Position numbers and translations under genes: made by a program
In this document: piece by piece, positions 2,214 through 35,611 of the stretch
Position numbering within the stretch: the stretch's first letter is position 1
Layout of the letters: each line of letters opens with the position of its first letter
Origin: Rhodospirillales bacterium
GTDB lineage: Bacteria > Pseudomonadota > Alphaproteobacteria > Azospirillales > Azospirillaceae
Assembly: GCA_003165295.1 (NCBI GenBank)
Contig: PLTC01000084.1
Location: 655 to 37,951 of the forward strand
Reading direction: 5' to 3'
DNA: 37,297 nt
Notes under the pieces: model-generated
Seen by the model: the letters and a program-made list of their open reading frames with translations, nothing else
Database searches by the model: none
What the model was told of the DNA's origin: nothing

Positions 2214-3809
2214 ATGACCGATAACGACGATTTGCTCTTCGAAGACGAGGCCCCTGAGGCGCCCCGGCCCAGCATCGCGCCTGCCGGCTGGAAAATGCTG
2301 GTGGTGGATGACGAGCCCGAGGTCCATTCGATTACGCGGTTGGTGTTGGCCGACTTCGCGTTTAAGGGGCGGACGACCCAGTTTTTCAGCGCCTACTCGG
2401 CGGCCGACGCCATCGCGATTCTCGAGCGGGAGCGGGACATCGCGGTGATCCTGCTCGATGTGGTGATGGAGACCGACGATGCCGGGTTGAAGCTGGTCCA
2501 TCACATTCGCGAAGTCATGGGCAATCGCCACGTTCGCATTATCCTGCGGACCGGCCAGCCGGGACAGGCACCCGAGCGCAGCGTGATCCTCGAATACGAC
2601 ATCAATGACTATAAGGCCAAGACCCAACTGACGGCCCAGCAGCTGTTTACCTGTACCGTGGCGGCCTTGCGCTCTTACGAGGATCTGATCACCATCGACG
2701 CCAATCGGCGGGGTCTGGAAAAGATTATCGAAGCGTCAAGCTCGCTTTCCAAGACAAGGTCGATGAAGCTGTTCGCGGCTGGGGTGCTGACCCAGCTCAG
2801 CGTCATCGTCGGCGCCGGCCCCGACGCCATCCTGTGCGTCAAGCGCGGCGATGTCCGTCGCCGCGACCGCAACGGCCTTTATGTGCTGGCCGGCTCCGGC
2901 CGCTTCGAGTCCCTGATCAACGAGCCGCTGGCGGCGGTGGTCGAAGCCGGGGTGGTCACCACGGTCAGCGACTGCCTGAACCAGCGCCGGAATGTCTTTG
3001 GCGAAGACCACTGTGCCCTGTACATCCAGACCCTGACGGACCGCGAGAATGTGGTCTACATGAGTTCGAACCGGCCGCTGAACCAGCTTGACCAGCGGCT
3101 GATCGCGCTGTTTTGCGATAAAATCGCAATTGGGTTCGAGAACATCTATCTTTACGAGCAGTTGCTCAAGGCCCAGGAGGCGACCGTCGCCACCCTGGCC
3201 GACATTGCCGAAACCGCCCAGGTGGATATCGATATTGCCACCGCCGCGTCCCTGGAGACCCGGTCCGAAAGTCTGCGCATTGCCGGGCTGGCCGAACGCA
3301 TCGCCCGCACCCTGCATGCCGGCCGTCAATTCCGCGACATCATCGACCAGTCGTTCCTGGAACTGATCGGTCTGGCCTCCATGCTCCATGATGTCGGCAA
3401 CATCACGGTGTCCGACCACATTCTGCGCAAGCCCGGCCCGCTGACCGGTGACGAGCGCCGGATCATGCAGCGGCATACGGTGCGCGGCCACGCCCTGCTG
3501 GTGCGCGCCTGCGGTATGGTCCAGGGCCTCACCTATCTGGAACTGGGCGCCGAGATCGCACTCGCCCATCACGAGAATTTCGACGGTTCTGGCTACCCCC
3601 ACGGTCTGGCCGGCAAGGCGATCCCGCTGGCCGCCCGCATTGCCGCCGTTGCCGACAGCTTTGACGCGCTGGTGTCGGAACGGCCCTACCGTCCGGCCAT
3701 TGCCCGGGATCAGGCCGTCACCATGATCGAGGCGATGGCCGGCAGCCGCTTTGATCCGGTGGTGGTCGCGGCCTTTCTCGAAGTGCAGGCCGCCGGTTCG
3801 GGTGCGTGA
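2214..3809 (+). CDS. Response regulator with REC, DUF3369 and HD-GYP domains
   Basis: The 531-residue product starts MTDNDDLLFEDEAPEAP and has three domains. The REC domain (about 27-155) has the acidic pair VDDE at 31-34 and phospho-acceptor D82 in ILLDVV. A DUF3369 middle region follows (about 165-345). The HD-GYP domain (about 355-525) has the HD pair H392-D393, HHE at 452-454 and the GYP loop. HD-GYP enzymes hydrolyse cyclic di-GMP, lowering it to favour motility. Two departures stand out. The usual HDxGK reads HDVGN. The histidine normally found in the preceding helix, in an ETGNH-like stretch, is replaced (ETRSESLRIAGLAERIAR), so one metal ligand may be missing. No cognate kinase is adjacent. 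The start at 2214 avoids translating the tandem repeat. The fold is clear but activity is uncertain. Confidence 0.88.
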   Translation: MTDNDDLLFEDEAPEAPRPSIAPAGWKMLVVDDEPEVHSITRLVLADFAFKGRTTQFFSAYSAADAIAILERERDIAVILLDVVMETDDAGLKLVHHIREVMGNRHVRIILRTGQPGQAPERSVILEYDINDYKAKTQLTAQQLFTCTVAALRSYEDLITIDANRRGLEKIIEASSSLSKTRSMKLFAAGVLTQLSVIVGAGPDAILCVKRGDVRRRDRNGLYVLAGSGRFESLINEPLAAVVEAGVVTTVSDCLNQRRNVFGEDHCALYIQTLTDRENVVYMSSNRPLNQLDQRLIALFCDKIAIGFENIYLYEQLLKAQEATVATLADIAETAQVDIDIATAASLETRSESLRIAGLAERIARTLHAGRQFRDIIDQSFLELIGLASMLHDVGNITVSDHILRKPGPLTGDERRIMQRHTVRGHALLVRACGMVQGLTYLELGAEIALAHHENFDGSGYPHGLAGKAIPLAARIAAVADSFDALVSERPYRPAIARDQAVTMIEAMAGSRFDPVVVAAFLEVQAAGSGA

Positions 3810-3883
3810 CGGCGCCGCCTGTGTTACGCCGGGCACCGCCCCGCACCCGTGAAGGAGATTCGCCTGCCCGACCTGAACGTCAC

Positions 3884-3930
3884 GGGTTCAAAGGGCCGAC
3901 CGGCCCTTTGCGGGTGTGGGCAGAGCCCAC
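3884..3930 (+). repeat. Dispersed intergenic double-hairpin element, copy A
   Basis: Two adjacent hairpins. The first has stem aaagggccg/cggcccttt (3890-3898 and 3901-3909). The second has stem gtgggc/gcccac around an AGA loop (3916-3930). The 47 bp match the inverted sequence at 6863-6908 at about 45 positions. It lies in the gap between the converging HD-GYP and pterin dehydratase genes. Confidence 0.8.
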
Positions 3931-3955
3931 TTGGGGCCAAGCCACCCCTTGACGC

Positions 3956-4261
3956 CTACCGGTCCGAGACGGTCACGGCCACGCGGTCGATCTGTTTGGC
4001 CAGTTCCAGATCGCGGCCGGTGACGCCCTCGGCGTCATGGGTGGTCAGGGTTATTTCGACGCGGTTGTAAACGTTGAACCATTCCGGGTGATGGCTAAGT
4101 TTCTCGGCGATCAGAGCGACCCGCGTCATGAATCCCCAGGCGGCATTGAAATCGGCGAAGTGATAACTCTTGCGGATGGCGTCGCGATCGGGAACTTCCG
4201 TCCACCCATGCAACTCCCGCAAGGCCGCCTGTCGTTTGGCTCCGACCAGTTTCTCCACCAT
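3956..4261 (-). CDS. phhB: 4a-hydroxytetrahydrobiopterin dehydratase (pterin-4a-carbinolamine dehydratase)
   Basis: The 101-residue product has the usual length and the family signature [20 protein letters not shown] at about residues 57-76, including the catalytic histidines. The enzyme dehydrates 4a-hydroxytetrahydrobiopterin, the by-product of aromatic amino acid hydroxylases, and so helps regenerate the pterin cofactor. No phenylalanine hydroxylase gene is next to it, so it may also serve another pterin-dependent process. Translation starts at 4261 ([11 protein letters not shown]), preceded by GGAG. It is transcribed leftwards, divergent from the metallopeptidase gene, and ends beside a dispersed hairpin element. 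The family assignment is firm; the physiological substrate here is inferred. Confidence 0.92.
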
Positions 4262-8080: not shown

Positions 8081-8172
8081 TTGAGTTTGGTTCAGCGTAA
8101 CGTGACCTCGGGATCGACGGGGCGATGCAAGGCTCCGGCGGGTGCGGAGCCGGTCAGGGACGGGCGGAAACC

Positions 8173-8580
8173 ATGGACCTTAATACCTTAGGGGTGTTCA
8201 AGCTCCTGAACAAGAAGATGGACTGGCTGAACCAGCGTCACGAGGTGCTGGCCCAGAACGTCGCCAACGTCGATACCCCCAATTACAAGTCCAGCGACCT
8301 CACGCCCTTTACCTTCAAGAGTGCGCTGGGCGAGGCCCACCGGCTGGCGCCGGTGCTGACCAATCCGGGCCATCAATTGCCGCCCGGATACACCGATGAG
8401 GTGGGCGAGGCGAAAAAGGACAAGACGCCTTACGAGACCAAGCCCGACGGCAACTCGGTGGTGGTCGAGGACCAGATGCTGAAAATGTCCCAGTCCGGTC
8501 AGGACTATACCATGATCACCAACCTTTACAAAAAGAACCTCAGCCTGCTGAAGCTGGCAATCCGCAGCGGCGGTTCGTGA
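8173..8580 (+). CDS. flgB: Flagellar basal-body rod protein FlgB
   Basis: The 135-residue product forms part of the proximal rod of the flagellum. The N-terminal helix followed by QRHEVLAQNVANVDTPNYKSSDL (about residues 21-43) is the rod/hook family signature. The C-terminal MITNLYKKNLSLLKLAIRSG helix is the partner in the coiled-coil rod packing. The start at 8173 (MDLNTLGVFKLLN) fits the family; an ATG at 8125 would add a glycine-rich leader. It is the first gene of a six-gene operon behind a sigma-54 promoter. The disordered middle (residues 65-100, with GEAKKDKTPYE) is normal for FlgB. Confidence 0.95.
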   Translation: MDLNTLGVFKLLNKKMDWLNQRHEVLAQNVANVDTPNYKSSDLTPFTFKSALGEAHRLAPVLTNPGHQLPPGYTDEVGEAKKDKTPYETKPDGNSVVVEDQMLKMSQSGQDYTMITNLYKKNLSLLKLAIRSGGS

Positions 8581-8615
8581 TCGGGCGGACCCGCGGGAAC
8601 GGAGGGAGGCGTACC

Positions 8616-9023
8616 ATGGACATTACCAAAGCGATGGCGGTTTCCGCCGCCGGCATGAAGGCACAGGGAACCCGGATCAAGGTTATTGCCGAGAATTTGG
8701 CCAACGCCGATTCGACGGCGGTAACACCGGGGGATCTGCCCTACCGGCGTCAGGTCGTGACCTTCAAGAACGCGCTGGACCGTCATCTTGGCGTGGACAC
8801 GGTTCGGGTCGCGGCCATCGGCGTCGACCGCAGCGACTTTCAGCGCCGGTACGAACCGGGCAATCCGGTGGCCGATGGCGATGGCTACGTGCTGACGCCC
8901 AACGTCAACGCGATCGTCGAAAACATGGACCTTCAGGAGGCCCAACGGTCCTACGATGCCAATCTTAATCTGATCGACACTGCCAAGACGATGCTGTCCC
9001 ACACCATCGGCCTGCTCCAGTAA
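8616..9023 (+). CDS. flgC: Flagellar basal-body rod protein FlgC
   Basis: The 135-residue rod protein has the N-terminal motif AAGMKAQGTRIKVIAENLANADST (about 10-33) and the C-terminal NVNAIVENMDLQEAQRSYDANLNLI typical of FlgC. It is secreted by the flagellar export apparatus and stacks with FlgB and FlgF in the proximal rod. A strong GGAGGG precedes the ATG at 8616 (MDITKAMAVSAAG). It follows flgB by 35 nt in the same operon. Confidence 0.95.
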   Translation: MDITKAMAVSAAGMKAQGTRIKVIAENLANADSTAVTPGDLPYRRQVVTFKNALDRHLGVDTVRVAAIGVDRSDFQRRYEPGNPVADGDGYVLTPNVNAIVENMDLQEAQRSYDANLNLIDTAKTMLSHTIGLLQ

Positions 9024-9072
9024 TCGTTGCACCGTTTGCGCGGCCGGGTCCTGCCGCGCCGGAGACACCGTC

Positions 9073-9387
9073 ATGGTCGCCAATGTCAGTGCTGCCCTTA
9101 ACGCCTATGCCAGCGCCGCCGCCCGCGCGGTTCAGCCCGGGCCGCCGGCCCTTGAAGACAGCGAGGGTGGCGGGTCGTTCGGGGCCATCCTCGAACAGAC
9201 GGCCAGGGGGGCCGTCGACACCTTGCGCAGCGGCGAGCAGATGTCGGCCAAGGCGGCCTTGGGCAAGGCCGACCTGACCGATGTGGTCTCGGCGGTGACC
9301 AACGCCGAGATGACCTTGCAAACCGTGACCGCGGTACGGGATAAAGTGGTGACGGCCTATCAGCAGATTCTGCAAATGCCGATCTGA
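9073..9387 (+). CDS. fliE: Flagellar hook-basal body protein FliE
   Basis: The 104-residue product links the MS ring to the rod. The C-terminal half (about 45-104) carries the conserved pattern of the family, SGEQMSAKAALGKADLTDVVSAVTNAEMTLQTV through VRDKVVTAYQQILQMPI. The N-terminal 40 residues are low-complexity and alanine-rich, as is common. GGAGAC precedes the ATG at 9073. It lies between flgC and fliQ, a conserved order in alphaproteobacteria. Confidence 0.94.
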   Translation: MVANVSAALNAYASAAARAVQPGPPALEDSEGGGSFGAILEQTARGAVDTLRSGEQMSAKAALGKADLTDVVSAVTNAEMTLQTVTAVRDKVVTAYQQILQMPI

Positions 9388-9445
9388 GCCCTTGTCGCCA
9401 AGGCCGGGACCAGAGCGGCGAGGTGCCGTTGCGGACACGAATGCC

Positions 9446-9718
9446 ATGACCGAAACCGATGCCATTGAGGTCTGCCGGGAAGCGATTCTCGCCATGATCT
9501 TCATCTCCGGGCCGATCCTGACCATCATGCTGGTGGTCGGTATCGTGATTTCGCTGTTCCAGGCGCTGACCCAGATTCAGGAACAGACCCTGACCTTCGT
9601 CCCCAAGATGCTGCTGGGATTCGCCGCGACCATCTTTCTCGCGCCGTTCATGGTCTCGCATCTGGTGACGTTTACCCAGCACATCGCCGACCGCATCGTC
9701 GCCATCGGCGCGCCATAG
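9446..9718 (+). CDS. fliQ: Flagellar export-gate protein FliQ
   Basis: The 90-residue product has two hydrophobic segments (about 17-40 and 55-78) and the conserved LFQALTQIQEQTLTFVPK loop. FliQ assembles with FliP and FliR into the pore of the flagellar type III export apparatus. The ATG at 9446 (MTETDAIEVCREA) gives the usual length. An in-frame TTG at 9392 would add 18 polar residues and is less likely. It ends 3 nt before the GTG of fliR, pointing to coupled translation. Confidence 0.95.
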   Translation: MTETDAIEVCREAILAMIFISGPILTIMLVVGIVISLFQALTQIQEQTLTFVPKMLLGFAATIFLAPFMVSHLVTFTQHIADRIVAIGAP

Positions 9719-9721
9719 CCT

Positions 9722-10492
9722 GTGGCCACCCTTCAGACCCTCATCGCCGGCCATCTGTTCGCCTGGCTGCTGGTGTTTACCCGGGTCGGCTCGGCGTTCA
9801 TGGTGATGCCGCTGTTCGGGGACCAGTTCGTGCCGGTTCGGGTGCGGCTGCTGCTGGCGCTGGTGATCAGCGTCATCGTGACCCCGGCCCTCGAAGACCG
9901 GTTGCCGCCCGAACCGGTGTCGCTGATGGCGCTGTTCCTGTTGCTCGGCAGCGAAGTCATGATCGGCGTCTTCATCGGTTCGCTGCCGCGCCTGATGTTC
10001 AGTGCCCTGGAAGTGGCGGGCATGATCATCGCGATGCAGACCGGGCTCTCCAACGCCTTCGTGTTCAACCCGGCGCTGGCCTCCCAGGGGTCGCTGCCGG
10101 GTTCGATGCTGTCCTGGCTGGCGCTGCTGCTGATCCTCATCACCAACATGCACCATATGCTGATCATGGCGGTGATCAACAGCTACGAGCTGTTTCAGCC
10201 CGGAACCGCACCGCCGGTCGATGACTTCGGGCGGATGGTGGTTCATATGGTGTCGGAAAGCTTCGCCATCGGCGTCGAGATGTCGGCGCCTTTCATCGCC
10301 ACCGGCCTGGTCTTCGCGCTGGCCTTGGGAGTGATGTCCCGGCTGGCGCCGCAGATGCAGGTCTTTACGGTGTTCATGGCTGCCCAGATCGGTTACGGTC
10401 TGATCCTGTTTTCGCTGACCTTGGGCGCGATGATGATCTTTTGGCTGCGCCATTTTGAATCCAACCTCGTGGATTTCGTGAATCCGGGTTGA
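9722..10492 (+). CDS. fliR: Flagellar export-gate protein FliR
   Basis: The 256-residue polytopic membrane protein has the family's FTRVGSAFMVMPLFGDQFVPVRVRLLLAL start (about 19-47). The middle AMQTGLSNAFVFNPA stretch and a C-terminal helix ending in FWLRHF are also typical. FliR completes the FliP5-Q4-R1 export gate. The start is a GTG at 9722, three bases after the fliQ stop, with no independent ribosome site, so translation probably depends on fliQ. Confidence 0.95.
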   Translation: MATLQTLIAGHLFAWLLVFTRVGSAFMVMPLFGDQFVPVRVRLLLALVISVIVTPALEDRLPPEPVSLMALFLLLGSEVMIGVFIGSLPRLMFSALEVAGMIIAMQTGLSNAFVFNPALASQGSLPGSMLSWLALLLILITNMHHMLIMAVINSYELFQPGTAPPVDDFGRMVVHMVSESFAIGVEMSAPFIATGLVFALALGVMSRLAPQMQVFTVFMAAQIGYGLILFSLTLGAMMIFWLRHFESNLVDFVNPG

Positions 10493-10519
10493 GCGGCCGG
10501 ACTCGGGCAGGAGAACGGC

Positions 10520-11596
10520 ATGTCGGAAGAAGATGAATCCTCTAAAACCGAAGAGGCAAGCGGCCGAAAGCTCGACAAGGCCCACGAGCAGGGACAATTC
10601 GCCAATAGCCGCGAGGTCAATCACCTGTTGGCCATGATCGGTATTCTGATCATCGTCGGTTGGTTGGCTTCTCCCATTGTCTCAAGAATCAAGAACGAGA
10701 TGATCCACTTCCTGTCCGAGGGCTACCAGATTCCCACCGACCAGGAGGGACTGAGAATCGTCCTGGCTGAGGTGATGATGGACGTGGTCTATTATGCCGC
10801 GTTGCCCTTACTGCTGCTAATGATCATGGGCATCCTGGCCACGGTCTTACAAATTGGATTTCGTTTTAGCTGGGCTTTGCTTAAGATCGACTTAAATAAA
10901 TTGAATCCGCTCACCGGCCTGAAGCGGATGTTTAAGCTCGACAAACAAGCGATCGAGATGGGCAAAAATCTTGGCAAACTGATCGCGATCGGTATGGTAG
11001 TTTATTTTATCCTGAAGCCGATGGTCGTAGGATTTGAGCACTTTATCGGGATGGACTTTGCCGATGTCCTGACCGAGGTTCACGATGTCGCATTTCGTAT
11101 GATGGCCGCGATTATCATCGTGGTGCTGGTGATTACGGTGGCTGATGTCGCTTACACTTACTTTACGTTTTACAAGCAACAGCGGATGACCAAGAAGGAG
11201 GTCAAGGACGAATACAAGCAGACCGAGGGCGATCCCCTGGTCAAGGGTAAAATTCGCAGTATGCGGGTGCAGCGTGCCCGCCAGCGCATGATGGCCGCGG
11301 TGCCCAAGGCCGACGTGGTCGTGACCAACCCGACTCATTTCGCGGTGGCCATGAAGTACGAGCCCGGCTCCAACCGGGCGCCGGTGGTCCTGGCCAAGGG
11401 CGCGGACTTCATCGCTGCAAATATCCGCAAACTTGCCGAAGAACACAAGATTCCCATCGTGCAGAACCCGCCCCTGGCCCGCGCCCTGTACGATACCGTC
11501 GAGATCGACCAGGAAGTTCCCGCCGAATATTATCGGGCGGTGGCCGAGGTCATTACCTTTGTGTTCAAACTGAAGGGCCGGTCGCTCCGGGGTTGA
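10520..11596 (+). CDS. flhB: Flagellar export switch protein FlhB
   Basis: The 358-residue product has an acidic, charged N-terminus (SEEDESSKTEEASGRKL), four transmembrane helices (about 35-210) and a cytoplasmic domain. That domain holds the autocleavage site NPTH at N270-H273. Cleavage between N and P switches export from rod/hook to filament substrates. The ribosome site is CAGGAGAACGGC. It is the last gene of the operon and converges on the ars operon with only 26 nt between. The central part (about 10840-11180) uses noticeably more A/T-rich codons than the rest of the operon, such as TTA, AAA and AAT. Confidence 0.95.
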   Translation: MSEEDESSKTEEASGRKLDKAHEQGQFANSREVNHLLAMIGILIIVGWLASPIVSRIKNEMIHFLSEGYQIPTDQEGLRIVLAEVMMDVVYYAALPLLLLMIMGILATVLQIGFRFSWALLKIDLNKLNPLTGLKRMFKLDKQAIEMGKNLGKLIAIGMVVYFILKPMVVGFEHFIGMDFADVLTEVHDVAFRMMAAIIIVVLVITVADVAYTYFTFYKQQRMTKKEVKDEYKQTEGDPLVKGKIRSMRVQRARQRMMAAVPKADVVVTNPTHFAVAMKYEPGSNRAPVVLAKGADFIAANIRKLAEEHKIPIVQNPPLARALYDTVEIDQEVPAEYYRAVAEVITFVFKLKGRSLRG

Positions 11597-21392: not shown

Positions 21393-23642
21393 ATGCCAGC
21401 ATCACCCGAGTCTGTTCCCGATGCCGCCCACCAGGCGGCGATTGAGTCTCTGGTGCGCGCCGAACACGCCGACCCGTTCAGTGTGTTGGGCATGCACCAG
21501 GAGCCGCCCGATGGGCCGGTGGTGGTGCGGACGCTGCTGCCCGGCGCGCGCACCGTCGAGGTGGTGGCGTGCGCTCCCGGCACCGTGCCGACGGTGGTGG
21601 CGCGGTTGGCCTGTTGCCATCCCGACGGGGTGTTCGCCGGGCCGGTGGCCGGTTGCCGTCACCGTTTTCGCTACCGCCTGCGCGTTACCTTCGATGAGGA
21701 CGTCCTGGAGTTCGAGGACGCCTATGCCTTCCCGCCGGTGCTGGGGGAACTGGACGTTCATCTGCTGGCCGAAGGCAGTCATCTGCAGGCTTACGAGCGG
21801 CTGGGGGCCCATCTTCGGGAGATCGACGGCGTCGCCGGCACCGCCTTCGCGGTCTGGGCGCCCAATGCCCGGCGGGTGAGTGTGGTCGGTGATTTCTGCG
21901 ATTGGGACGGTCGCCGTCTGCCAATGCGCAAGCTTCACGAGTGCGGGGTCTGGGAAATATTTGTTCCAGGAGTGGTTCCCGGCGACCGCTACAAGTTCGA
22001 GATCAAGGGGGCCTCGGGCGCGCTGCTGCCGCTCAAGTCCGATCCGATGGCGTTGGAAACCGAACGGCCGCCCCGCACCGCATCGGTGGTGTCGGCGCCC
22101 GATCGCTTCGCCTGGAGCGACGGGGCGTGGATGGGCCGGCAGGCGGTGGCCAACCACCATCGGGAGCCGGTTTCCATCTACGAGGTCCACCTGGGCTCGT
22201 GGCGGCGGCTTGCCGAAGCCGGTGGGCGACCGCTCAGCTATCGGGAACTGGCCGAACAACTGGTACCCTACGCCGTCGACATGGGATTCAGTCATCTGGA
22301 ACTGCTGCCGATCACCGAATTTCCTTTCGATGGTTCCTGGGGTTACCAGCCCATCGGGCTTTATGCCCCGACCAGTCGCCACGGTGGTCCCGATGACTTC
22401 CGGTTCTTCGTCGATGCCTGCCACCGGGCCGGCCTGGGCGTGCTGCTCGACTGGGTGCCCGGTCATTTTCCCAGCGATCCCAACGGCCTGAGCCGGTTTG
22501 ACGGCACCTGCCTTTACGAGCATGCCGACCCGCGCCAGGGCTATCAGCCCGATTGGCAGACCCTGATCTACAATTTCGGCCGGCGCGAGGTGGCGAACTT
22601 TTTGCTCGGCAGCGCGCTGTTCTGGCTGGATCGTTACCATCTTGACGGCATTCGGGTCGATGCCGTGGCTTCGATGCTGTATCTGGATTACAGCCGCAGC
22701 GACGGTGCGTGGATTCCCAACCGCTACGGCGGCAAGGAGAATCTCGAGGCCATCGCCTTTCTGCGCCGGCTGAACGAGCTGGCCTATGCCCGGCATCCCG
22801 GAGTCATGACCATTGCCGAGGAGTCCACCGCCTGGCCGGGGGTCTCGCGTCCGGTCTGGCTCGGCGGTCTCGGCTTCGGCTTCAAATGGAACATGGGCTG
22901 GATGCATGACGCCCTGCGCTATTTCGGCCGGGACACGCTGTTCCGTAGCTGGCACCACAACGACCTGACCTTTGCACTGCTTTACCAGTACAGCGAAAAT
23001 TTCATCCTGCCGATCAGTCATGACGAGGTGGTGCATGGCAAGGGCTCGTTGATCAGCCGGATGCCCGGCGACCGCTGGCAGCAATTCGCCAATTTACGGG
23101 CTTTTCTTGGCTATATGTTCTGTCATCCGGGCAAGAAACTGCTGTTCATGGGCTGTGAGTTTGGCCAGTGGGCCGAGTGGAACCACGATGCCAGCCTTGA
23201 CTGGCCGTTGTTGGATCTGCCCGAACATCAAGGCGTGCAGGGGCTGGTGCGCGATCTTAACCGGCTGTATCGTACCGAGCCGGCGCTGCATCAGGGCGAC
23301 TGCGATCCTGGCGGCTTTGAATGGATCGAGGCCAACGACACCACCAACAGCGTCCTGGCCTGGCTGCGCTGGCCGGTGGCAGCGGAGGACCAGGACCGGT
23401 TCCTGGTGTGTGTCGGCAATTTCACGCCCCAACCCCACCACGGCTACCGGGTGGGGGTGCCGGCGGGCGGGCGCTATCTGGAGCGACTCAACACCGATGC
23501 CGCCTGTTACGGCGGCAGCAATCTCGGCAATGCCGGCGGCGTCGATGCCGAAGCCCGGCCCTGGCACGGCCGCCCGTGGTCGCTGTCCCTGACCCTGCCG
23601 CCTTTGGCGGTCCTGGTGCTGGAGGGCCGATGGTCTGTTTAG
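21393..23642 (+). CDS. glgB: 1,4-alpha-glucan branching enzyme GlgB
   Basis: The 749-residue product introduces alpha-1,6 branches into glycogen. Order of domains: an N-terminal module (about 1-125), a carbohydrate-binding CBM48 region (about 135-235), the GH13 (beta/alpha)8 barrel and a C-terminal beta domain. Catalytic residues are nucleophile D423 ([12 protein letters not shown]), acid E476 (TIAEEST) and D544 ([13 protein letters not shown]). Each lies 18 positions after its Escherichia coli counterpart (405, 458, 526). The start at 21393 ([10 protein letters not shown]) has only a weak ribosome site. The other glycogen genes are not adjacent, so glgB is separate from any glg operon here. 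Confidence 0.95.
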
Positions 23643-24970: not shown

Positions 24971-25783
24971 TCAGGGCGCGAGCGTTGCCAGGAATGCCGG
25001 TAGTTCGCTCAAAAAGGCGGTGCGGGCGCGTGGTCCGGCGCCGCCGGCCTCTTCCTTTTCGTCCTGGATGAGGCGGGCGAACACAAAAGTCCGGGGGCCG
25101 CGGGTCGCCCATCCGACGAACCAGCCATAAGCATGGGCGGCATCCCGCACGCCGGCCGGGGTCAGAGGAAAGCCAGTTCCGGTCTTGCCGTGAACCTCCC
25201 AGCCGTCGGGGAGCGGGGCGAGCTGCGTGATCTGGCTCGTCATGTCGAAGGCATGGGGGCTGACCGGCAGTTGCCGATTAACCAGCCTGGTCAGGAACGT
25301 CACTTCCTCCAAGGGCGAAATCGTCAATGACGAACCAAGCCAGGCCCGGGTCAGGCCATTATGCTGCCCGGGGTCGCCCGAGAGATCCCGGTTGCCATAG
25401 TCGAAGTCGTCTACATACTTCTGGAAGTGCGCTTCTCCAAGGGACTGGGTCACCTGTTGCGAAAACCAGACCACGGAATACTGAATCCACCGGGTCGGGT
25501 CGGTGGTCTGACGCCAGTCGGGACCCGCCCAATCGGCGTAGCCCTCGCGGAACGACAGGGCCGGCGCGTGGGCGTCCTTCAGGAAGCCGGAATCATAGCC
25601 CATCAGACTGATGGCGATCTTGAACGTCGATGCCGGAGTCACGCGCCCGCGGCACTCTCCGTCCTGCACCACCACTGTCCCGGTGGCGGCATCGGCGATG
25701 GCCGTACACACCGTCCGGGCTTGGGCGGTCGAGGTGGAAAACCCCGCCATCAGGCAGGCCAATGCCGCGCCTCGTAGATGCAT
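24971..25783 (-). CDS. Class D (OXA-type) beta-lactamase
   Basis: The 270-residue product starts with a signal peptide (about 1-22, ending STAQA). It carries all the class D motifs: S52-T-F-K55 (PASTFK), S103-V-V, Y129-G-N131 (FDYGNRDL) and K200-T-G (VHGKTGTG). The tryptophan at 148 (RAWLGSSL) corresponds to the residue that stabilises the carboxylated lysine in OXA enzymes. The serine acylates beta-lactams and the carbamylated K55 drives hydrolysis. The ATG at 25783 has GGAG upstream; an ATG at 25819 would add charged residues before the signal peptide. No insertion sequence or integron feature adjoins it, so it looks like a resident chromosomal gene. Its spectrum cannot be predicted. Confidence 0.92.
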   Translation of the reverse strand: MHLRGAALACLMAGFSTSTAQARTVCTAIADAATGTVVVQDGECRGRVTPASTFKIAISLMGYDSGFLKDAHAPALSFREGYADWAGPDWRQTTDPTRWIQYSVVWFSQQVTQSLGEAHFQKYVDDFDYGNRDLSGDPGQHNGLTRAWLGSSLTISPLEEVTFLTRLVNRQLPVSPHAFDMTSQITQLAPLPDGWEVHGKTGTGFPLTPAGVRDAAHAYGWFVGWATRGPRTFVFARLIQDEKEEAGGAGPRARTAFLSELPAFLATLAP

Positions 25784-26023
25784 GAACCGGTCTCCATGTC
25801 TCAGGTCCAGGTGGAACATTTTCCCCGCCGGGTGCCGGGAGGGGCGGGGGGCCGGAGGCGGTCCCGACCTGCCTCGGTGATACCAGAGTGCCCTGACCGG
25901 GAATCAGGATTTCGATGCGAAAGTATGATCGCATCATGGAAGTTTCATGCAACCGTCAGATCCATGTTGAGGCCGCCGGGCATGGTGGCAACGATGTCGG
26001 TGTCGTCGGATTTGGAGGGTTCA

Positions 26024-26804: not shown

Positions 26805-28193
26805 TCAGTCCGAGAAGACCACCCGTAATGCGCCCCAGTGGCGACCGCGGACGAGGATCGGGACGCTGGCGTCTTTGAGCATGACGCTGGTGGTCCCCAT
26901 CTGGCGGTGGAAGGTTTGGAGCAGAAGCGGCTTGCGGTTGGTTGAGGCCGCGACGTTGGTCCGGTCGTCGAACTTGATCCGGTTGCGGCAATTGGCGGCG
27001 TTCCATGCCGGGTCGGGGCCCTGGGGTTTCGAGTAGGCCGGTTGGTGGGTCGGCAGGTAGCCGTTGCGGTCGACGGCGCAGACCGCGCGATAACGGGGGC
27101 TGCTGGCGGCGACCGGGTCCTGGATCGGCGGCAGCACCCGCTCGCAGAACTCGGTGAAGCGGGTCAGGTACTGGGGCGGATTGGTGCCGGGGCTCTGCCG
27201 GTAGTGGTCATCGAAAAGATCGGCCTCGGAAATCTCGCCACGGGCCAACGCCGCCTCGAAGGCGGCGGCGATTTTGGCGCCGGTTTCCTGGGCGGCCCGG
27301 ATAAACGGGGTGTCGGGGGTTTCAATCCCCAACTCGGCGGTGGACCCCAGCAGGCTTTCCCCCAGGTCCCGGACCAGCAGGATGCGTTCCCCGGCGCCGG
27401 TGAGCTTCTGGTCGGTCTGGGTGACCGAGGCCACCATGTCGGTCAGGCGGCCGGCGATGGCGGCGACGCTGCTGTCGATGGCGCCGGCATCCTGGCTGAT
27501 GCCGTCGGCCTGGGCGTCAACCCGGGCCATGGTGGCGCCGACGGTTTCGATCACCGCGGCGATGGCGTCGGTGCTCTCGGCGACCAACGCCGCCTTGGCG
27601 GTGCCGGCCGCGCTTTCGGCGATCAGCTTCTGGGCCTGTTCGGTCAGCACCCGGAGGGTGGCGTCGATCTCGGAGGTGGCCTCGGCGGTCTTGCGCGACA
27701 GTGCCTTGACCTCTCCCGCAACCACGGCAAAACCGCGTCCGGCCTCTCCGGCCCGCGCCGCCTCGATGGTGGCGTTCAGTGCCAGCAGGTTGGTCTGACC
27801 GGCGATGGCGCCGATTTCCTTGGCCACCCGGGCGACCCGGGCCAGCGCCGCGCGCAACCCCGAAAGCTGTTGTTCCATGCCGGTGACGGTGGCGGCAAGG
27901 TCGCGGATTTCCGTCAGGGATCGCTGGACCTGGAGTTGGGAACTGTCCACCGTGCGCCGGGCCTCGCCCACCACCCGCCGTGCGTCGGAGGCGGTGCCGG
28001 CAATGCGCCCGGAAATCCCTGCGACCTTATCGACGGCGTCCCTCACGCGCATGAAGTCGTCGGTCTGGTCATGCACATGCTCGGTCAGCTCCTGGACAAC
28101 ATCAATGACCTCGGCAAGGCCCAGGCTGAGTTGTCCGGCATTGGCCGCGATCTTTTGAATCAGGGGCTCGTTGGTGTGACCGGCCACGTTCAT
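26805..28193 (-). CDS. Cytoplasmic methyl-accepting chemotaxis protein with C-terminal sensor region
   Basis: The 462-residue product lacks transmembrane helices. The signalling domain (about 60-285) contains the invariant hairpin tip [20 protein letters not shown] and flanking heptad repeats where methylation would occur. The last 130 residues (about 330-462) form a separate globular domain, including [18 protein letters not shown] and [25 protein letters not shown]. This resembles the Cache/PAS-like C-terminal region of soluble alphaproteobacterial receptors. The receptor probably senses an internal signal and joins the CheA-CheW arrays. A good site (GGGAGAGATGGG) precedes the ATG at 28193. 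No che genes are adjacent. Confidence 0.85.
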
Positions 28194-28548: not shown

Positions 28549-29268
28549 TCAGGTGGTGAACTGGGCGCCGTTAATCGAGAAGGTCGCGCCGTTGACGAAC
28601 TGGGCCTCATCGGCAGCCAGGAACACCACGGTACGGGCGATTTCCTTGGGTTCGCCCAGACGGCCGGTCGGGATCTTGGCGACGATGGAGGCGAGCACCT
28701 TGGCGTCGATCTTTGCCACCATCTCGGTGTTGATGTAGCCGGGGCAGATGGCGTTGACGGTGATGCCCTTGGCTGCACCCTCTTGCGCCACGGCGCGGGT
28801 GAAACCCAGCACACCGGCCTTGGCCGCAGAGTAGTTGGCCTGACCGAACTGGCCGACCTGACCGTTGACCGAGCTGATATTGATGATCCGGCCAAAGCCG
28901 CTCGCCCGCATGCTCTCGATCACCTGGCGGGTCACGTTGAACATCGAGCTGAGGTTGACCTTGATCACCGCGTCCCACTGCTCGACGGTCATCTTGTGCA
29001 AAAAGGCGTCCCGGGTAATGCCGGCATTGTTGACCACGATCTCGATCGGGCCGTGGTCAGCGACGATCTTGGCAATGCCTTCCTTGGTGGCGTTAAAGTC
29101 GCTCACGTCGACCAGGTAGACGGGGATCCCGGACGCTTCGGTGAATTCCTTGCCCGTTTGTTCGTTCACGTCGACGGCGACGACGCGATAGCCTGCGTTC
29201 TTCAGAGCGATGGAGATCGCCGCGCCAAGACCGCGGGCGCCACCAGTAACCAATGCCAGGCGTGCCAT
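28549..29268 (-). CDS. phaB: Acetoacetyl-CoA reductase PhaB
   Basis: The 239-residue short-chain dehydrogenase has the cofactor motif TGGARGLGAA (about 8-17), NNAG near residue 80 and serine in NISSVNGQ. The catalytic YSAAK tetrad segment is at about 144-148. NVTRQVIESMRASGFGRIINISSVNGQ and AICPGYINTEMVAKI are typical of PhaB, which uses NADPH to make (R)-3-hydroxybutyryl-CoA for polyhydroxyalkanoate. FabG-type reductases are the main alternative, but the VNGQVGQFGQANYSAAKAG wording favours PhaB. The site CGGGAG precedes the ATG at 29268. phaA is not beside it, so this copy is apparently monocistronic. A TTGCA palindrome lies about 180 nt upstream. Confidence 0.9.
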   Translation of the reverse strand: MARLALVTGGARGLGAAISIALKNAGYRVVAVDVNEQTGKEFTEASGIPVYLVDVSDFNATKEGIAKIVADHGPIEIVVNNAGITRDAFLHKMTVEQWDAVIKVNLSSMFNVTRQVIESMRASGFGRIINISSVNGQVGQFGQANYSAAKAGVLGFTRAVAQEGAAKGITVNAICPGYINTEMVAKIDAKVLASIVAKIPTGRLGEPKEIARTVVFLAADEAQFVNGATFSINGAQFTT

Positions 29269-29882
29269 GGAGTTTTCTCCCGAATGTGTTTTGGAGGTTC
29301 AAGACCGTTACAGATTTGCTTTTACAGCCGGTGACGCCACCGGAACCGATCTGTCCGGCGGCCCCCGCCGGGACCGTATCGGCTGTTTTCATACTCGCAA
29401 CGACAGCCCCGGGCAACGGCCAACAAGACGTCCGACGTCGTTATTGCAGTGCAATAAAGTCAATGGCTTCGCTGCCCGACAGGTTGCGGCAACGGCGGTT
29501 CCGCGCGGCTGTCGGGATCAGGACGGAACGTTACCGTGAAGCCCCGCACGACGCAATTTCCCTCTTGATTATCAGCTATGCGCGAAATTTTACTACTGAA
29601 CGACTCCATGTCCGGGATTTGCGGTCGAAACCGGCGGCCGTGTGCCGGAGGTATGGCGCGAATAATTTTCGTGCCCGCAATGTATGGTCGGAACGGACCG
29701 GAAGCAGGTCTTATGGCGTAGGTGAGCACCGGGTTGGTCTGAACGGTCAGATTGAGACGGTATCCCCCGGAAGGTGTACGTCCCGGATTGCGCTTGTCCG
29801 GGCTGACGATTGCTGCCAGTTATTCCCGGGTGGCCCAAATGGGAACTGCGGCCATGCAAAGATGCCCGCGGAGAGGTCCGTC
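29269..29882. other. Long divergent gap between phaB and the ethylene-receptor-like kinase
   Basis: These 614 bases separate two divergent genes. They include the palindrome at 29441-29457 and an AT-richer stretch at 29550-29600, a plausible promoter zone though no clear hexamers were found. The kinase reading frame stays open through this region back to 29253 but overlaps the phaB start. Its translation shows no domain, so it is regarded as a by-product of composition. No small gene or RNA was recognised. Confidence 0.5.
29441..29457. promoter_or_regulatory. TTATTGCA-G-TGCAATAA palindrome, candidate PhaR operator
   Basis: A perfect inverted repeat of 8 bp with a 1-nt centre. TGC/GCA-rich palindromes of this kind are bound by PhaR, the regulator of polyhydroxyalkanoate genes in alphaproteobacteria such as Paracoccus. 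Its position about 175-190 nt upstream of phaB is compatible with that role. The match is by resemblance only. Confidence 0.5.
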
Positions 29883-31601
29883 ATGTTCGATGTCTTCGGG
29901 AACCTCCTGTCCAACGATGGCTTTACGCCCCACGGGTTTTGTCTGACCTGGCGGCCTGATGTGTTCTGGACAGAGGTGGCGGCCGATGGCGCCATCGCCC
30001 TTTCCTATTTTTCGATCCCTGCCGCGTTGGTTTACTTTTCCATCTATCGGCGCGATCTGAGTTTCCGCTGGGTCGTGGTCCTGTTCGGGGCCTTCATCGT
30101 GGCCTGCGGAACGACTCATGTTCTGAGCATCTGGACCATGTGGGTTCCGGACTACGGCATTGAGGCGCTGGTCAAGGCCGTAACCGCCGTGGTTTCGGTC
30201 GTGACCGCGGCGGTGCTGTGGCCGCTGATGCCCAGGGCACTGGCCATCCCGTCGCGTCTTGATCTGGAACGGGTGATTTCCGCGCTGACCCGCGAAACCG
30301 GCGAGCGGCAGCAGGCGCAACAGGCGCTGGAGCAACTCAACGCCGAGTTGGAGGCGCGTATCTGTGAGCGCACCCGCGATCTTGAGGTGGCCAATCAGCG
30401 ATTGCGTCGGGAGGTGGCGGAGCGCCAGCGGGCGGAAGAGTCGCTTCGTGAGCAGGTCGTCTTCATCGAACGGCTCCTGGAGACTATCCCGGCGCCGGTT
30501 TTTTACAAGGATGAGAGTAGCCGCACGAGCGGCTGCAACCCGGCTTTCGAGCGGTTCTTCGGGCTTACCCTCAACCATTCGGCCCGACAGGCCGGATATG
30601 ACTTTCTGCCGAAGGAATTCGGGGAGATTCACGTCAACCTTAACGACACCGCGTTGCCCGTGGGCAGCCCGCAGATTTGCGAAACCACGGTGCGTTCGGC
30701 CGACGGCGCGGCCCATGACGTGGTTCTTCATCGCGCCGTGTTGTGCCGCAGCGATGGCCGGGTCAGCGGTCTGGTGGGCGTCATCTGGGACATCACGGAC
30801 CGCAAGCGGAACGAAGCCGAACTGGAACGTGCCCGGCGTGCCGCAGAAAATGCCAACAAGGCAAAATCTTCCTTTCTGGCGGTCATGAGTCACGAGTTGC
30901 GCACGCCATTGAATGCCATCCTGGGGTTTTCGGAGATGCTCAAGATTGAGACAAGGTGTCCGGACCGGCTCCCAAATTGTAACGAGTACCTGGATTATAT
31001 TTCTTATTCCGGGGCCCATCTGCTCGATATTATTAACGATATTCTGGATGTTTCGAAAATGGAGGCCGGCGCGATGGAAATTTCGCGGTGTCCGGTGGAA
31101 GCCCGGTCGCTTCTCGACTCTGTTTACTGCCTGATTGTGGAGGAAGCCCGCAAACTCGGGGTTCGTCTGGATATCCGGTGTGACGCCGGCCAGATCTGGG
31201 TCGATCCCAAGGCGGTCAGGCGAATTCTGCTCAATCTGCTGTCCAATGCGATGAAGTTCACCAAAGCCGGCGGCTGCGTGCGGGCGAGAATGGTTCCGGT
31301 TGCAGGTGGGGTTGAACTTCAGGTCGCCGATACCGGCATCGGCATTCCGGCCGATCAGGTCGACCGGTTGGTCAGACCGTTCGAACAGATGGAAAGCCAA
31401 TATGCCCGAAGCCACGGCGGGACCGGCCTTGGTTTGTCGATTGTCCAGGGTCTGGTCCGGCTGCATGGCGGTCGCCTGAGCATCCAAAGCGAAGTGGGGG
31501 CCGGAACCACGGTCACGGTGTTTTTGCCGGAGGGGCCGGATGCCGTCGTCGCCGGCCGGTCGGCGACGGCACCGGCAAGGGAACCGAACCCGGTAAACTG
31601 A
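29883..31601 (+). CDS. Histidine kinase with ETR1-type ethylene-binding sensor domain
   Basis: The 572-residue kinase begins with three predicted helices (about 33-55, 61-83 and 95-117) that match the ethylene-binding domain of plant ETR1. D35, Y42, P46, I72, C75 and H79 equal ETR1 D25, Y32, P36, I62, C65 and H69, all at offset +10. C75 and H79 (ACGTTH) would hold the Cu(I) cofactor that binds ethylene. The coiled coil (about 130-175) leads to a PAS domain (about 175-295). The HisKA domain has H337 in VMSHELRTPL, and the HATPase domain has NLLSNAMKF, VADTGIGIP and GTGLGLS. There is no receiver domain and no adjacent regulator. GGAGAGG precedes the ATG. Similar domains occur in cyanobacteria (Synechocystis Etr1); ethylene binding here is inferred. 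Confidence 0.88.
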   Translation: MFDVFGNLLSNDGFTPHGFCLTWRPDVFWTEVAADGAIALSYFSIPAALVYFSIYRRDLSFRWVVVLFGAFIVACGTTHVLSIWTMWVPDYGIEALVKAVTAVVSVVTAAVLWPLMPRALAIPSRLDLERVISALTRETGERQQAQQALEQLNAELEARICERTRDLEVANQRLRREVAERQRAEESLREQVVFIERLLETIPAPVFYKDESSRTSGCNPAFERFFGLTLNHSARQAGYDFLPKEFGEIHVNLNDTALPVGSPQICETTVRSADGAAHDVVLHRAVLCRSDGRVSGLVGVIWDITDRKRNEAELERARRAAENANKAKSSFLAVMSHELRTPLNAILGFSEMLKIETRCPDRLPNCNEYLDYISYSGAHLLDIINDILDVSKMEAGAMEISRCPVEARSLLDSVYCLIVEEARKLGVRLDIRCDAGQIWVDPKAVRRILLNLLSNAMKFTKAGGCVRARMVPVAGGVELQVADTGIGIPADQVDRLVRPFEQMESQYARSHGGTGLGLSIVQGLVRLHGGRLSIQSEVGAGTTVTVFLPEGPDAVVAGRSATAPAREPNPVN

Positions 31602-31716: not shown

Positions 31717-33399
31717 CTACGCCCGCAACGCCCGCATCAGGGTGCCGAGTTCGTGGACTAGGGCGTCGGCGGGCTTTGAGAGGTCATTGGCGGTCCAGAT
31801 CACCCGGATGGCCGAGGCGTAGGACGAGGCCGAGGCGCGGGCCACGGTGCTGAAGCGGGTGGTGAAGACCTCGGCGTCGCGGGCGATGTCCTGCACCCGG
31901 TTCAGGATGTCGGTGGTGGCGCCATCCTGCCGCGCCACCGAACCGGCCACGTCGGCGGCAATGTCCGACATGCTGGCGATGATCCGGGAAATCTGGCCGA
32001 TGGCTTCGGCGGCGTTCCTGGTCGCCTGCTGGATGGCCGCGACCTGGACCGAGATGTCTTCGGTGGCGCGGGCGGTCTGTCCGGCCAGGGTCTTGACCTC
32101 GTGGGCGACCACGGCAAAGCCTTTGCCGGCCTCTCCGGCACGGGCGGCCTCGATGGTCGCGTTGAGCGCCAGCAAATTGGTCTGGCTGGCGATGCTGGAA
32201 ATCAGCCCCACCACCTGACCGATGCGCTCCGCCGACTCCGACAGCCCGCCCACCTGGCGGTTGGTGGTCTCCGCCTGGGTCACGGCCTGATGGGAGATGG
32301 TGCTCGACTCCGCGACCCGGCGGCACACCGTGGCAAAGGACTCGCTTAACTTCTGCGTGTCTTCGGTCAGGGCCTTGATGCTGGCCACGGTCCGCCGGGA
32401 CACGGCGGCGGCGTTCATCGAGCGGTCGGACGAGGGGCCGGTCCTTTTGCCCATCTTGCCGGCGGTGGCCGCGATCCGCAGCGAATGGGTGCGGACCAGA
32501 TCGATAAGGGCTCGGGCATTGGCCTCGAAGCCGTCGGCCAGTCGGTGGCGGGCGAGGCGCCCGGCCTCGGCGGCGTCGCGCCTGACCCGTTCCTGCTCCA
32601 GCGCCAGGTGGTGCATCCTGACGGCGTTGCCTTTGAAGACCGACAGCGCCCGGCTCATGGCCCCCAGCTCGTCGGTGCGTCGCGGCGCGGGGATCGCCAC
32701 CTCCAGATCGCCCTCGGCCAGCCCGGCCATGACCTTGACCATCTCGTGAACCGGCCGGACGATGCTGCGGGCGACCAGCAGTGACAGGCCCGCCACCACA
32801 AGCATGACGGCCAGCACGATCCCCCCGATCAGCAGCGACTGATCACGAAAGAGGGTGTCGACGTCGTCCAGGTAGAGACCGGTTCCGACCAGCCACCCCC
32901 ACGGCTGAAAGCCTTTGACAAAGCTGATTTTCGGGACCGGCTGATCGTGGCCCGGCTTGGGCCACAGATAGTCCACGAAGCCGGCGCCCCGGGTCTGGAC
33001 GATCCTGACCATCTCCACGAACAGGGGCTTGCCGCCAGGGTCCCGGGTGCCGGTCAGGTCCCTGCCGATCAGCCCGACGGTGGGGTGCAGCAGCATCACC
33101 GGATGCTGGTCGGTCACAAAGAAATAGTCGTCGTTGCCGTCGCGAAGCGGCGCCAGGGTGGCCAGTGCCCGTCTTTGCGCGTCTTCGGCGGTGAGGGTGC
33201 CGGACCGGGCCTGAGCCTCGAGACCGGCCAGAATGCCATAGGCGGTTTCCACCAGTTGTCGGGCCTGGTTCTGGCGGTCCTGCAACAGGCTGGCGTGGAG
33301 CCGGTTCAGACTGATGGTTGCGACCGCGACCATTCCAATCACGGCTGCGGCCACGATCAAAAGAATACGACCACCCAGGGTCAGGGTTGGAACGGTCAT
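31717..33399 (-). CDS. Methyl-accepting chemotaxis protein with sCache-type sensor
   Basis: The 560-residue receptor has transmembrane helix 1 (about 11-31) and a periplasmic single-Cache domain (about 35-185, including [26 protein letters not shown] and [15 protein letters not shown]). Helix 2 lies at about 188-212, followed by a HAMP domain. The signalling domain has the hairpin tip [21 protein letters not shown] (about 395-415). sCache_2 domains usually bind small organic acids or related metabolites, so it likely guides taxis to such a compound. The ATG at 33399 has GGAGG about 11 nt upstream, rather far. It converges on the ethylene-receptor-like kinase and is divergent from prpE. The C-terminus lacks a CheR-binding pentapeptide. 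Confidence 0.9.
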
Positions 33400-33700
33400 G
33401 ATCGGCGGGTCCTCCGTGGGGGCGGTTCGGCCTGTCTGCGACGGCAGGCTCAGGGTTCACGCCCCGGTAACGTATTCTTCAACTTAATTTTTGGTTGGTT
33501 CGTTACGGATCATCTTATACGGGTGGCAGCGCACCGCAAACCGGTCATGATGTCGCGGGCCGGAGGTGACCCCAAGCGGGCGGCGCACAACGAATCAGGA
33601 TTTGCAATGGGTCACCGGTTTGTCGCACACTTGCCTGACGCGGGCCAAACGCCGCGATCAGCCAACGAATTCGTTCCGGGGAGCTCAAGAAGGGTACGCC
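33400..33700. other. Divergent promoter region between the chemoreceptor and prpE
   Basis: These 301 bases hold no gene. An AT-richer patch at 33465-33525 includes TTGGTT (33491-33496) and TTATAC (33515-33520) separated by 18 nt. This is a modest sigma-70-like candidate reading towards prpE, with a leader of about 170 nt. Confidence 0.35.
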
Positions 33701-35611
33701 ATGACCGATCTTTATGAACAAATGTTCGCGCGTTCCATCACTGATCCCGATGGTTTCTGGGGTGATGCTGCGGCCGGGGTGCATTGGGACAAAACCTGGG
33801 AGGCTGTTCTTGACCGGAGCCGTCCGCCGTTTTACCGTTGGTTCACGGGCGGAATGCTCAATACCTGTTACAATGCGATCGACCGTCATGTCGAGGGTGG
33901 GCGCGGTGATCAGGCGGCGATCATTTATGACAGTCCAGTTACCAGTTCCGGCGAAACCATCACTTATCGCCAGTTGCTCGACCGGGTCAGTCGCTTTGCC
34001 GGTCTGCTGAGTGAACTGGGGGTGGAGAAGGGCGACCGGGTGATCATCTACATGCCGATGATCCCGCAGGCGGTCGAAGCGATGCTGGGATGTGCCCGAA
34101 TCGGGGCCGTCCATTCGGTGGTGTTCGGCGGCTTCGCCCCCAGCGAATTGTCGACCCGGATCAACGACGCCAAACCCAAGGTCATTGTTTCGGCGTCGTG
34201 CGGCATTGAAGGCAAGAAGGTCCTGCCGTACAAGCCGATGCTCGACTCGGCGATCGAGATGTCGGCCCACAGGCCCGCGCACACGGTGATCTTCCAGCGG
34301 CCGCAGGAAACCGCGACCATGATTCCGGGGCGCGATGTGGACTGGGCCACCGGCACCGCGGCGGCTGAGCCGGCGGCGTGTGTTTCGGTCGCCGCCACCG
34401 ATCCGCTGTATATTCTCTATACCTCGGGCACCACCGGTCAGCCCAAGGGCATTGTCCGCGATAATGGCGGCCATGCCGTGGCGCTGACCTGGACCATGCG
34501 TTATATGTACAATATGCAGCCGGGAGAGGTGTTCTGGGCGGCTTCCGACGTGGGTTGGGTGGTTGGCCATTCCTATATCTGCTACGCGCCGCTGTTCTAC
34601 GGTTGCACCTCTCTGCTTTACGAGGGCAAACCGGTGGGCACGCCGGATGCCGGCGCCTTCTGGCGGGTGATCAGCGAGCATAAGGTGGCGACGCTGTTCA
34701 CTGCGCCCACCGCCTTTCGGGCGATCAAGCGCGAGGACCCCGAGGGTGTCCAGCTTGCCAAGTACGATCTGGGCGGCTTCCGCGCCCTGTTCCTGGCCGG
34801 CGAGCGTTCGGACCCCGACACGCTGCATTGGGCCGAGGACAAGCTCAAGGTGCCGGTGATCGACCACTGGTGGCAGACCGAAACCGGTTGGGCGATTTCG
34901 GGCAATCCGCTCGGCATCCAACTGTTCCCGATCAAGTACGGCTCGGCGACCAAGCCGCTGCCGGGCTGGGATGTCCGCATCGTCAATGCCGAGAACCAGG
35001 AGGTGCCGCACGGCGACATCGGCGCCATCGTGATCAGGCTGCCGCTGCCCCCGGGCTCGCTGCCCACCCTGTGGAACGCCGACGACCGTTTCGTCAAGTC
35101 GTACATGACCGAGTATCCCGGCTATTACCAGACCGGGGACGCCGGCTTCATCGACGACGACGGCTATATCAGCATCATGGCCCGGACCGACGACATCATC
35201 AATGTTGCCGGCCACCGGCTGTCCACCGGCGCCATGGAGGAGGTGCTGTCGTCCCACAAGGACGTGGCCGAATGCGCGGTGATCGGTGTCGCAGATCAGC
35301 TCAAGGGCCAGGTGCCGCTCGGTTTCCTGGTGCTGAAGGCCGGCGTCAGGCGTTCGGATGAGGAGATCGTCAAGGAGGTGGTTCAGTCGGTCCGCGACCA
35401 GATCGGCCCGGTCGCCGATTTCAAGCGCGCGGTGGTGGTGCAGCGGCTGCCCAAGACCCGCTCGGGCAAGATTCTCCGCGGCACCATGCAGAAGATCGCC
35501 GACAGTTCGCCGTTCAAGGCGCCGGCAACCATTGATGATCCGGCAATCCTGCCGGAAATCGCCGAGGCACTGCGGGCACTGGGTTACGCCAGGACCGCGG
35601 CTCAGGAGTAG
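33701..35611 (+). CDS. prpE: Propionyl-CoA synthetase PrpE
   Basis: The 636-residue AMP-forming acyl-CoA ligase joins propionate (or a similar short acid) to CoA via an acyl-adenylate. The P-loop-like motif is YTSGTTGQPKGIVRDNGGHAVAL; the RDNGGH ending separates PrpE from acetyl-CoA synthetase. WWQTETGW and YYQTGDAGFIDDDGYI form the adenylate pocket, and K590 in TRSGKILRG is the catalytic lysine that acetylation often controls. The start at 33701 (MTDLYEQMFARS) has AAGAAGGG upstream. The methylcitrate-cycle genes are not adjacent. Its product could feed methylmalonyl-CoA metabolism or odd-chain polyhydroxyalkanoate. Confidence 0.92.
   Translation: MTDLYEQMFARSITDPDGFWGDAAAGVHWDKTWEAVLDRSRPPFYRWFTGGMLNTCYNAIDRHVEGGRGDQAAIIYDSPVTSSGETITYRQLLDRVSRFAGLLSELGVEKGDRVIIYMPMIPQAVEAMLGCARIGAVHSVVFGGFAPSELSTRINDAKPKVIVSASCGIEGKKVLPYKPMLDSAIEMSAHRPAHTVIFQRPQETATMIPGRDVDWATGTAAAEPAACVSVAATDPLYILYTSGTTGQPKGIVRDNGGHAVALTWTMRYMYNMQPGEVFWAASDVGWVVGHSYICYAPLFYGCTSLLYEGKPVGTPDAGAFWRVISEHKVATLFTAPTAFRAIKREDPEGVQLAKYDLGGFRALFLAGERSDPDTLHWAEDKLKVPVIDHWWQTETGWAISGNPLGIQLFPIKYGSATKPLPGWDVRIVNAENQEVPHGDIGAIVIRLPLPPGSLPTLWNADDRFVKSYMTEYPGYYQTGDAGFIDDDGYISIMARTDDIINVAGHRLSTGAMEEVLSSHKDVAECAVIGVADQLKGQVPLGFLVLKAGVRRSDEEIVKEVVQSVRDQIGPVADFKRAVVVQRLPKTRSGKILRGTMQKIADSSPFKAPATIDDPAILPEIAEALRALGYARTAAQE

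Follow-up and report, generated by a model that had tools for sequence, protein, structure and literature searches.

We analysed a 37,297-nucleotide stretch of contig PLTC01000084.1 from an Azospirillaceae bacterium (hereafter the window). Its forward strand carries an ethylene-receptor-like histidine kinase gene with the following features, given in window positions:

29883..31601, +: ethylene-receptor-like histidine kinase gene, 572 aa (translation, Pfam)
29870..29876, +: probable ribosome-binding site GGAGAGG, 6 nt 5' of the ATG (sequence read)
29961..30248, +: ETR1_N ethylene-binding domain, residues 27-122 (PF25487, E 8e-38; AlphaFold helices)
30105..30119, +: candidate Cu(I) site C75-x3-H79, codons TGC ... 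CAT (sequence, translation, alignment)
30255..30455, +: long signalling helix or coiled coil, residues 125-191 (AlphaFold full-length model)
30462..30809, +: PAS domain, residues about 194-309 (Pfam PAS/PAS_4)
30861..31070, +: HisKA dimerisation/phosphoacceptor domain, H337 in SHELRTPL (Pfam, motif)
31203..31532, +: HATPase_c with N (NLLSNA), G1 (DTGIGI) and G2 (GGTGLGL) boxes (Pfam, motifs)

The gene starts with the ATG at 29883 and stops with the TGA at 31599-31601 (sequence read). A mechanically called ORF extends further 5', from 29253; its extra 210 codons have no Pfam match and no support from relatives, and we rejected this longer frame. Homology with relatives begins at or near the Met of 29883.

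Pfam places PAS at residues 195-304, HisKA at 327-396 and HATPase_c at 441-550, and found neither a GAF nor a receiver domain in the 572-aa protein. The transmitter is complete, with the H, N, G1 and G2 boxes all present (motifs and Pfam). The full-length AlphaFold model shows the helix of residues 125-191, followed by a PAS region of poor resolution and by the kinase core; the modelled helix would fit a coiled coil. Thus Pfam and AlphaFold agree with the initial annotation, which had described a fusion of the N-terminal domain to a coiled coil, PAS, HisKA and HATPase.

Genes around the receptor

The receptor gene has a divergent and a convergent neighbour, with further genes on either side:

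28549..29268, -: PhaB-type acetoacetyl-CoA reductase, divergent neighbour (TIGR01829, 331.9 bits, cut-off 302.1)
31717..33399, -: sCache_2-HAMP-MCP chemoreceptor, convergent neighbour (Pfam)
26805-28193, -: MCP-signal protein
33566-35611, +: PrpE/Acs-type CoA ligase
21393-23642, +: GlgB

The window also holds flagellar genes at 8125-11596 (+), namely a rod-protein match and FlhB, and a class D beta-lactamase gene at 24971-25819 (-) that scores above the NCBIfam bla_class_D_alt cut-off.

One explanation of this arrangement is that the receptor directly regulates the adjoining phaB/PHB storage and chemotaxis genes, with ethylene tuning carbon storage locally. phaB lies divergently upstream of the receptor gene both in the window and in a genome of the same genus (G001), and in Azospirillum brasilense ethylene raises PHB while lowering biofilm formation and root colonisation (PMC11819568). 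But among the loci searched the divergent pair was conserved in G001 only; it was absent from the others, including those of two same-genus genomes with the domain. Chemoreceptor and PrpE-type genes also occur near the receptor in G001, in a different arrangement. Thus the neighbourhood offers weak support for a storage or motility role. The intergenic DNA common to the window and G001 lies mainly on the phaB side, and position alone gives no local action to a kinase without a DNA-binding partner. We consider local regulation of these genes unlikely, and regard direct coupling of the receptor to phaB as equally doubtful.

In the intergenic region, towards phaB, lies a palindrome (TTGCAGTGCAA / TATTGCAGTGCAATA, 29442-29456) that is conserved in G001 and is a possible operator. 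Its core, TTGCANTGCAA, has just four sites in the genome. Apart from the one here, none adjoins PHB genes, and TTGCAGTGCAA is at most a weak candidate for a PHB operator. A sigma-54 promoter has been suggested for AzoEtr1, the A. brasilense receptor; in our search the count of sigma-54 matches was not above chance and no convincing match lay 5' of the receptor gene.

The initial annotation had proposed that the receptor might tune motility, adhesion or carbon storage. Such tuning is plausible, but with the phaB pair in a single congener its link to the neighbourhood is weak. The link to motility through the neighbouring chemoreceptors is weak as well, and disruption of AzoEtr1 left aerotaxis unaffected (PMC11819568).

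Elsewhere in the source genome, ACC deaminase gave only a sub-threshold match (253 versus 392 bits), and a photosystem reaction centre was searched for and was absent. Pieces of a nifH-like gene lie at contig ends (G000:C50:1-543 and G000:C297:2-139), and the organism may fix nitrogen.

The predicted ethylene-binding domain

The N-terminus matched ETR1_N at 129.1 bits (E 8e-38; curated cut-off of PF25487, 27 bits) over model positions 2-97 of 97. The same family search found nothing in 14 control genomes, so the match is far beyond chance. Another membrane sensor family as the identity of the N-terminus, which the initial annotation had named as a refuting outcome, was ruled out: ETR1_N matched full-length, was the sole Pfam match there and had no rival. 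AlphaFold modelled the domain as three long helices (25-55, 62-87 and 91-120; mean pLDDT 84.6, from an input that left out three rows from plasmid records), which are predicted to be transmembrane. In a Foldseek search of the PDB the best match had an E of 1.1 and none fell below 0.001; solved homologous folds thus neither contradict nor confirm an ETR1-type domain.

The seven ethylene-binding residues of ETR1, which we take to be D25, Y32, I35, P36, I62, C65 and H69, all have counterparts in the window protein, at ETR1+10: D35, Y42, I45, P46, I72, C75 and H79. According to the account in PMC11819568, Wang et al. found seven ETR1 residues to be needed for ethylene binding in Arabidopsis. The initial annotation had named six of the set at this offset; alignment confirmed all six and added I45, which it had missed. 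The output lysine, K98, is likewise retained at ETR1+10. Across an alignment of 27 sequences, Y42, I45, P46, C75, H79 and K98 never vary, and D35 and I72 hardly do.

The nearest orthologue, L068 of G001, shares 85% identity with the window protein over the ethylene domain, its most conserved long segment, compared with 65% for PAS, 69% for HisKA and 76% for HATPase. The domain has a dN of 0.07 and a dS of 1.22 (dN/dS about 0.06), which together with its identity indicates strong purifying selection on the sensor. A profile search also found Cu-exporting P-type ATPases encoded in the source genome; such ATPases scored above the cut-off in 13 of the 14 control genomes as well, and being near universal they prove little for ethylene binding.

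Not every ETR1_N homologue in the class retains its binding residues, and possession of the fold is therefore no guarantee of binding, although the window protein keeps all of them. L107 (G385, same class) has Gly in place of C75, whereas its genome also encodes L097, a copy that keeps the Cys; L107 is a possible non-binding paralogue. The divergent homologues L103 and L104 lack most binding residues and perhaps sense something else. Within the genus, the ethylene-domain kinase L075 (G002, 2977-4149, -) carries natural D35E and I72V changes. Natural variants of this kind in related genomes (D35E; C75G) could be used to test which residues matter.

An alternative is that the domain binds Cu(I) but responds physiologically to a different signal: copper itself, redox state, or another small olefin or gas. 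The copper-coordinating residues are all there, yet a sequence does not reveal which ligand is sensed, and the authors of the AzoEtr1 study note that such receptors in bacteria could do more than mediate responses to ethylene (PMC11819568). However, all seven ethylene-binding residues are retained, beyond the Cys and His, and ethylene binding has been demonstrated for the homologous domain of AzoEtr1, with which the window's shares 52% identity (PMC11819568). We find a non-ethylene signal improbable. The window protein very probably does bind ethylene, as its conserved residues suggest.

Kinase core, partner and distribution

The sensor is conserved, but the outputs behind it vary. The best profile matches of the window's kinase core are of the ArcB/TorS type, all far below equivalog cut-offs, and its kinase and DHp domains match the PDB structures of plant ETR1 (4pl9, 1.9e-10) and ERS1 (4mt8, 1.6e-9). 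The AzoEtr1 core matches FixL-like PDB chains, with ETR1 and ERS1 not among its matches. A quick kinase tree with several long branches separates the two cores by a branch of 99% SH-aLRT support.

A response regulator gene directly follows the receptor gene, mostly overlapping it, in 13 of 29 loci of relatives, A. brasilense included. No such gene lies beside the receptor at the window locus or at L068; in the window its place is taken by the sCache_2-HAMP-MCP gene on the opposite strand. We also looked for a cognate regulator in trans: among the genome's 73 receiver-like matches there was no clear orthologue of AzoRR, and the best match, at 37% identity, did not stand out from the remaining receivers. 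A strict AzoEtr1 orthologue with identical kinase-regulator wiring would share the family, the domain order and the sensor identity that are seen, but the tree, the different PDB matches and the missing adjacent regulator make it highly improbable.

Within the genus, the domain sits on at least three kinase architectures: EBD-coil-PAS-HK in the window and G001, a short EBD-HK in G002 and EBD-PAS-PAS-HK-REC-REC in G003; no ETR1_N domain was found in G004. These variants, with the differences from AzoEtr1, suggest that kinase modules have been swapped while the sensor stayed conserved.

ETR1_N was present in 24 of 35 sampled genomes of the window's family, and a spread sample of 385 genomes from the class yielded 28 with the domain. 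One genome of the sampled family (G027) matched the etr region of A. brasilense Sp7 at 93-97% over about 15.6 kb; as A. brasilense is a member of Azospirillaceae, the sampled family is very probably Azospirillaceae. Further matches lie on plasmid records from Azospirillum, Novosphingobium, Rhodovastum, Rhizobium and cyanobacteria. The conjugative plasmid p2 of Novosphingobium sp. ES2-1 carries an ethylene-domain kinase gene (L080, 7995-9462) that overlaps the gene of a response regulator, and a Cas9 gene lies about 0.8 kb away. As L080 sits on a conjugative plasmid, the ethylene sensor can move between bacteria. It is conceivable, if somewhat doubtful, that the ethylene domain is a mobile sensor module and that the window's version feeds a pathway distinct from that of AzoEtr1, perhaps with a connection to PHB synthesis or chemotaxis.

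Proposed mechanism and known systems

Taken together, these results suggest that the window protein is very probably a membrane ethylene receptor histidine kinase, copper-dependent, ethylene-inhibited and orphan. Judged by its residues, and like ETR1 and AzoEtr1, the protein would form a dimer whose three-helix membrane domain coordinates Cu(I) through C75 and H79 in helix 2, and ethylene would bind this copper. Binding would move helix 3, which carries K98, together with the 67-residue coiled coil; through PAS the movement would alter autophosphorylation of H337. The direction of the response is taken by analogy with ETR1, SynEtr1 and AzoEtr1, for which an inverse-agonist model has been discussed (PMC11819568): ethylene would lower kinase activity, and its inhibition of the window kinase is reasonably probable. 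Because no regulator lies at the locus, we infer that the response regulator receiving the phosphate would have its gene at another place in the genome. The output is the least certain step; it would most likely be an AzoEtr1-like change, and an effect of the receptor on attachment or carbon storage is a tentative proposal.

The window protein shares with plant ETR1/ERS1 the seven binding residues and detectably similar kinase and DHp domains; unlike them it has no GAF or receiver domain, and PAS follows its binding domain instead. Plant ethylene receptors reside in the ER, with CTR1 as their main signalling target. Among bacterial receptors, SynEtr1 (slr1212) of Synechocystis PCC 6803 is, by description, similar in joining an ETR1-type ethylene-binding domain to a histidine kinase, but it is cyanobacterial and signals to slr1213 (PMC11819568). 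Other ETR1_N proteins of Azospirillaceae and alphaproteobacteria have the same sensor domain as the window protein with varied outputs: HisKA, HisKA_2/HWE, a two-receiver hybrid or a short EBD-kinase.

The initial annotation held that the bacterial domain had been studied mainly in Synechocystis, a view now outdated by the 2025 work on A. brasilense AzoEtr1, termed the first receptor described in a proteobacterium (PMC11819568). AzoEtr1 is a 525-aa protein with an ethylene domain, PAS and kinase; it binds 14C-ethylene, with residues 1-130 sufficient when expressed in yeast, and its D35A and C75A versions fail to rescue the mutant (PMC11819568). Biofilm formation, the colonisation of roots and metabolism, PHB accumulation included, are under its control (PMC11819568). 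Proteins of this kind are thus already known, the demonstration coming from a proteobacterium in the window's own family, and the window receptor opens no new kind of system.

The window protein resembles A. brasilense AzoEtr1 in its residue numbering (D35, C75, H79 and K98; PMC11819568), its sensor domain (52% identity with that of strain Sp7) and its EBD-PAS-HisKA-HATPase order. It differs in its core, which is ArcB/TorS-like rather than FixL-like, and in its coiled-coil linker, which is longer; it also lacks a regulator next to it, whereas AzoEtr1 has the overlapping single-domain regulator gene AzoRRetr1. The different core and the orphan status are modestly interesting: the A. brasilense receptor-regulator pair is not the general wiring even inside the family, and the window adds a well-conserved Azospirillaceae ethylene receptor with a kinase type unlike that of AzoEtr1.
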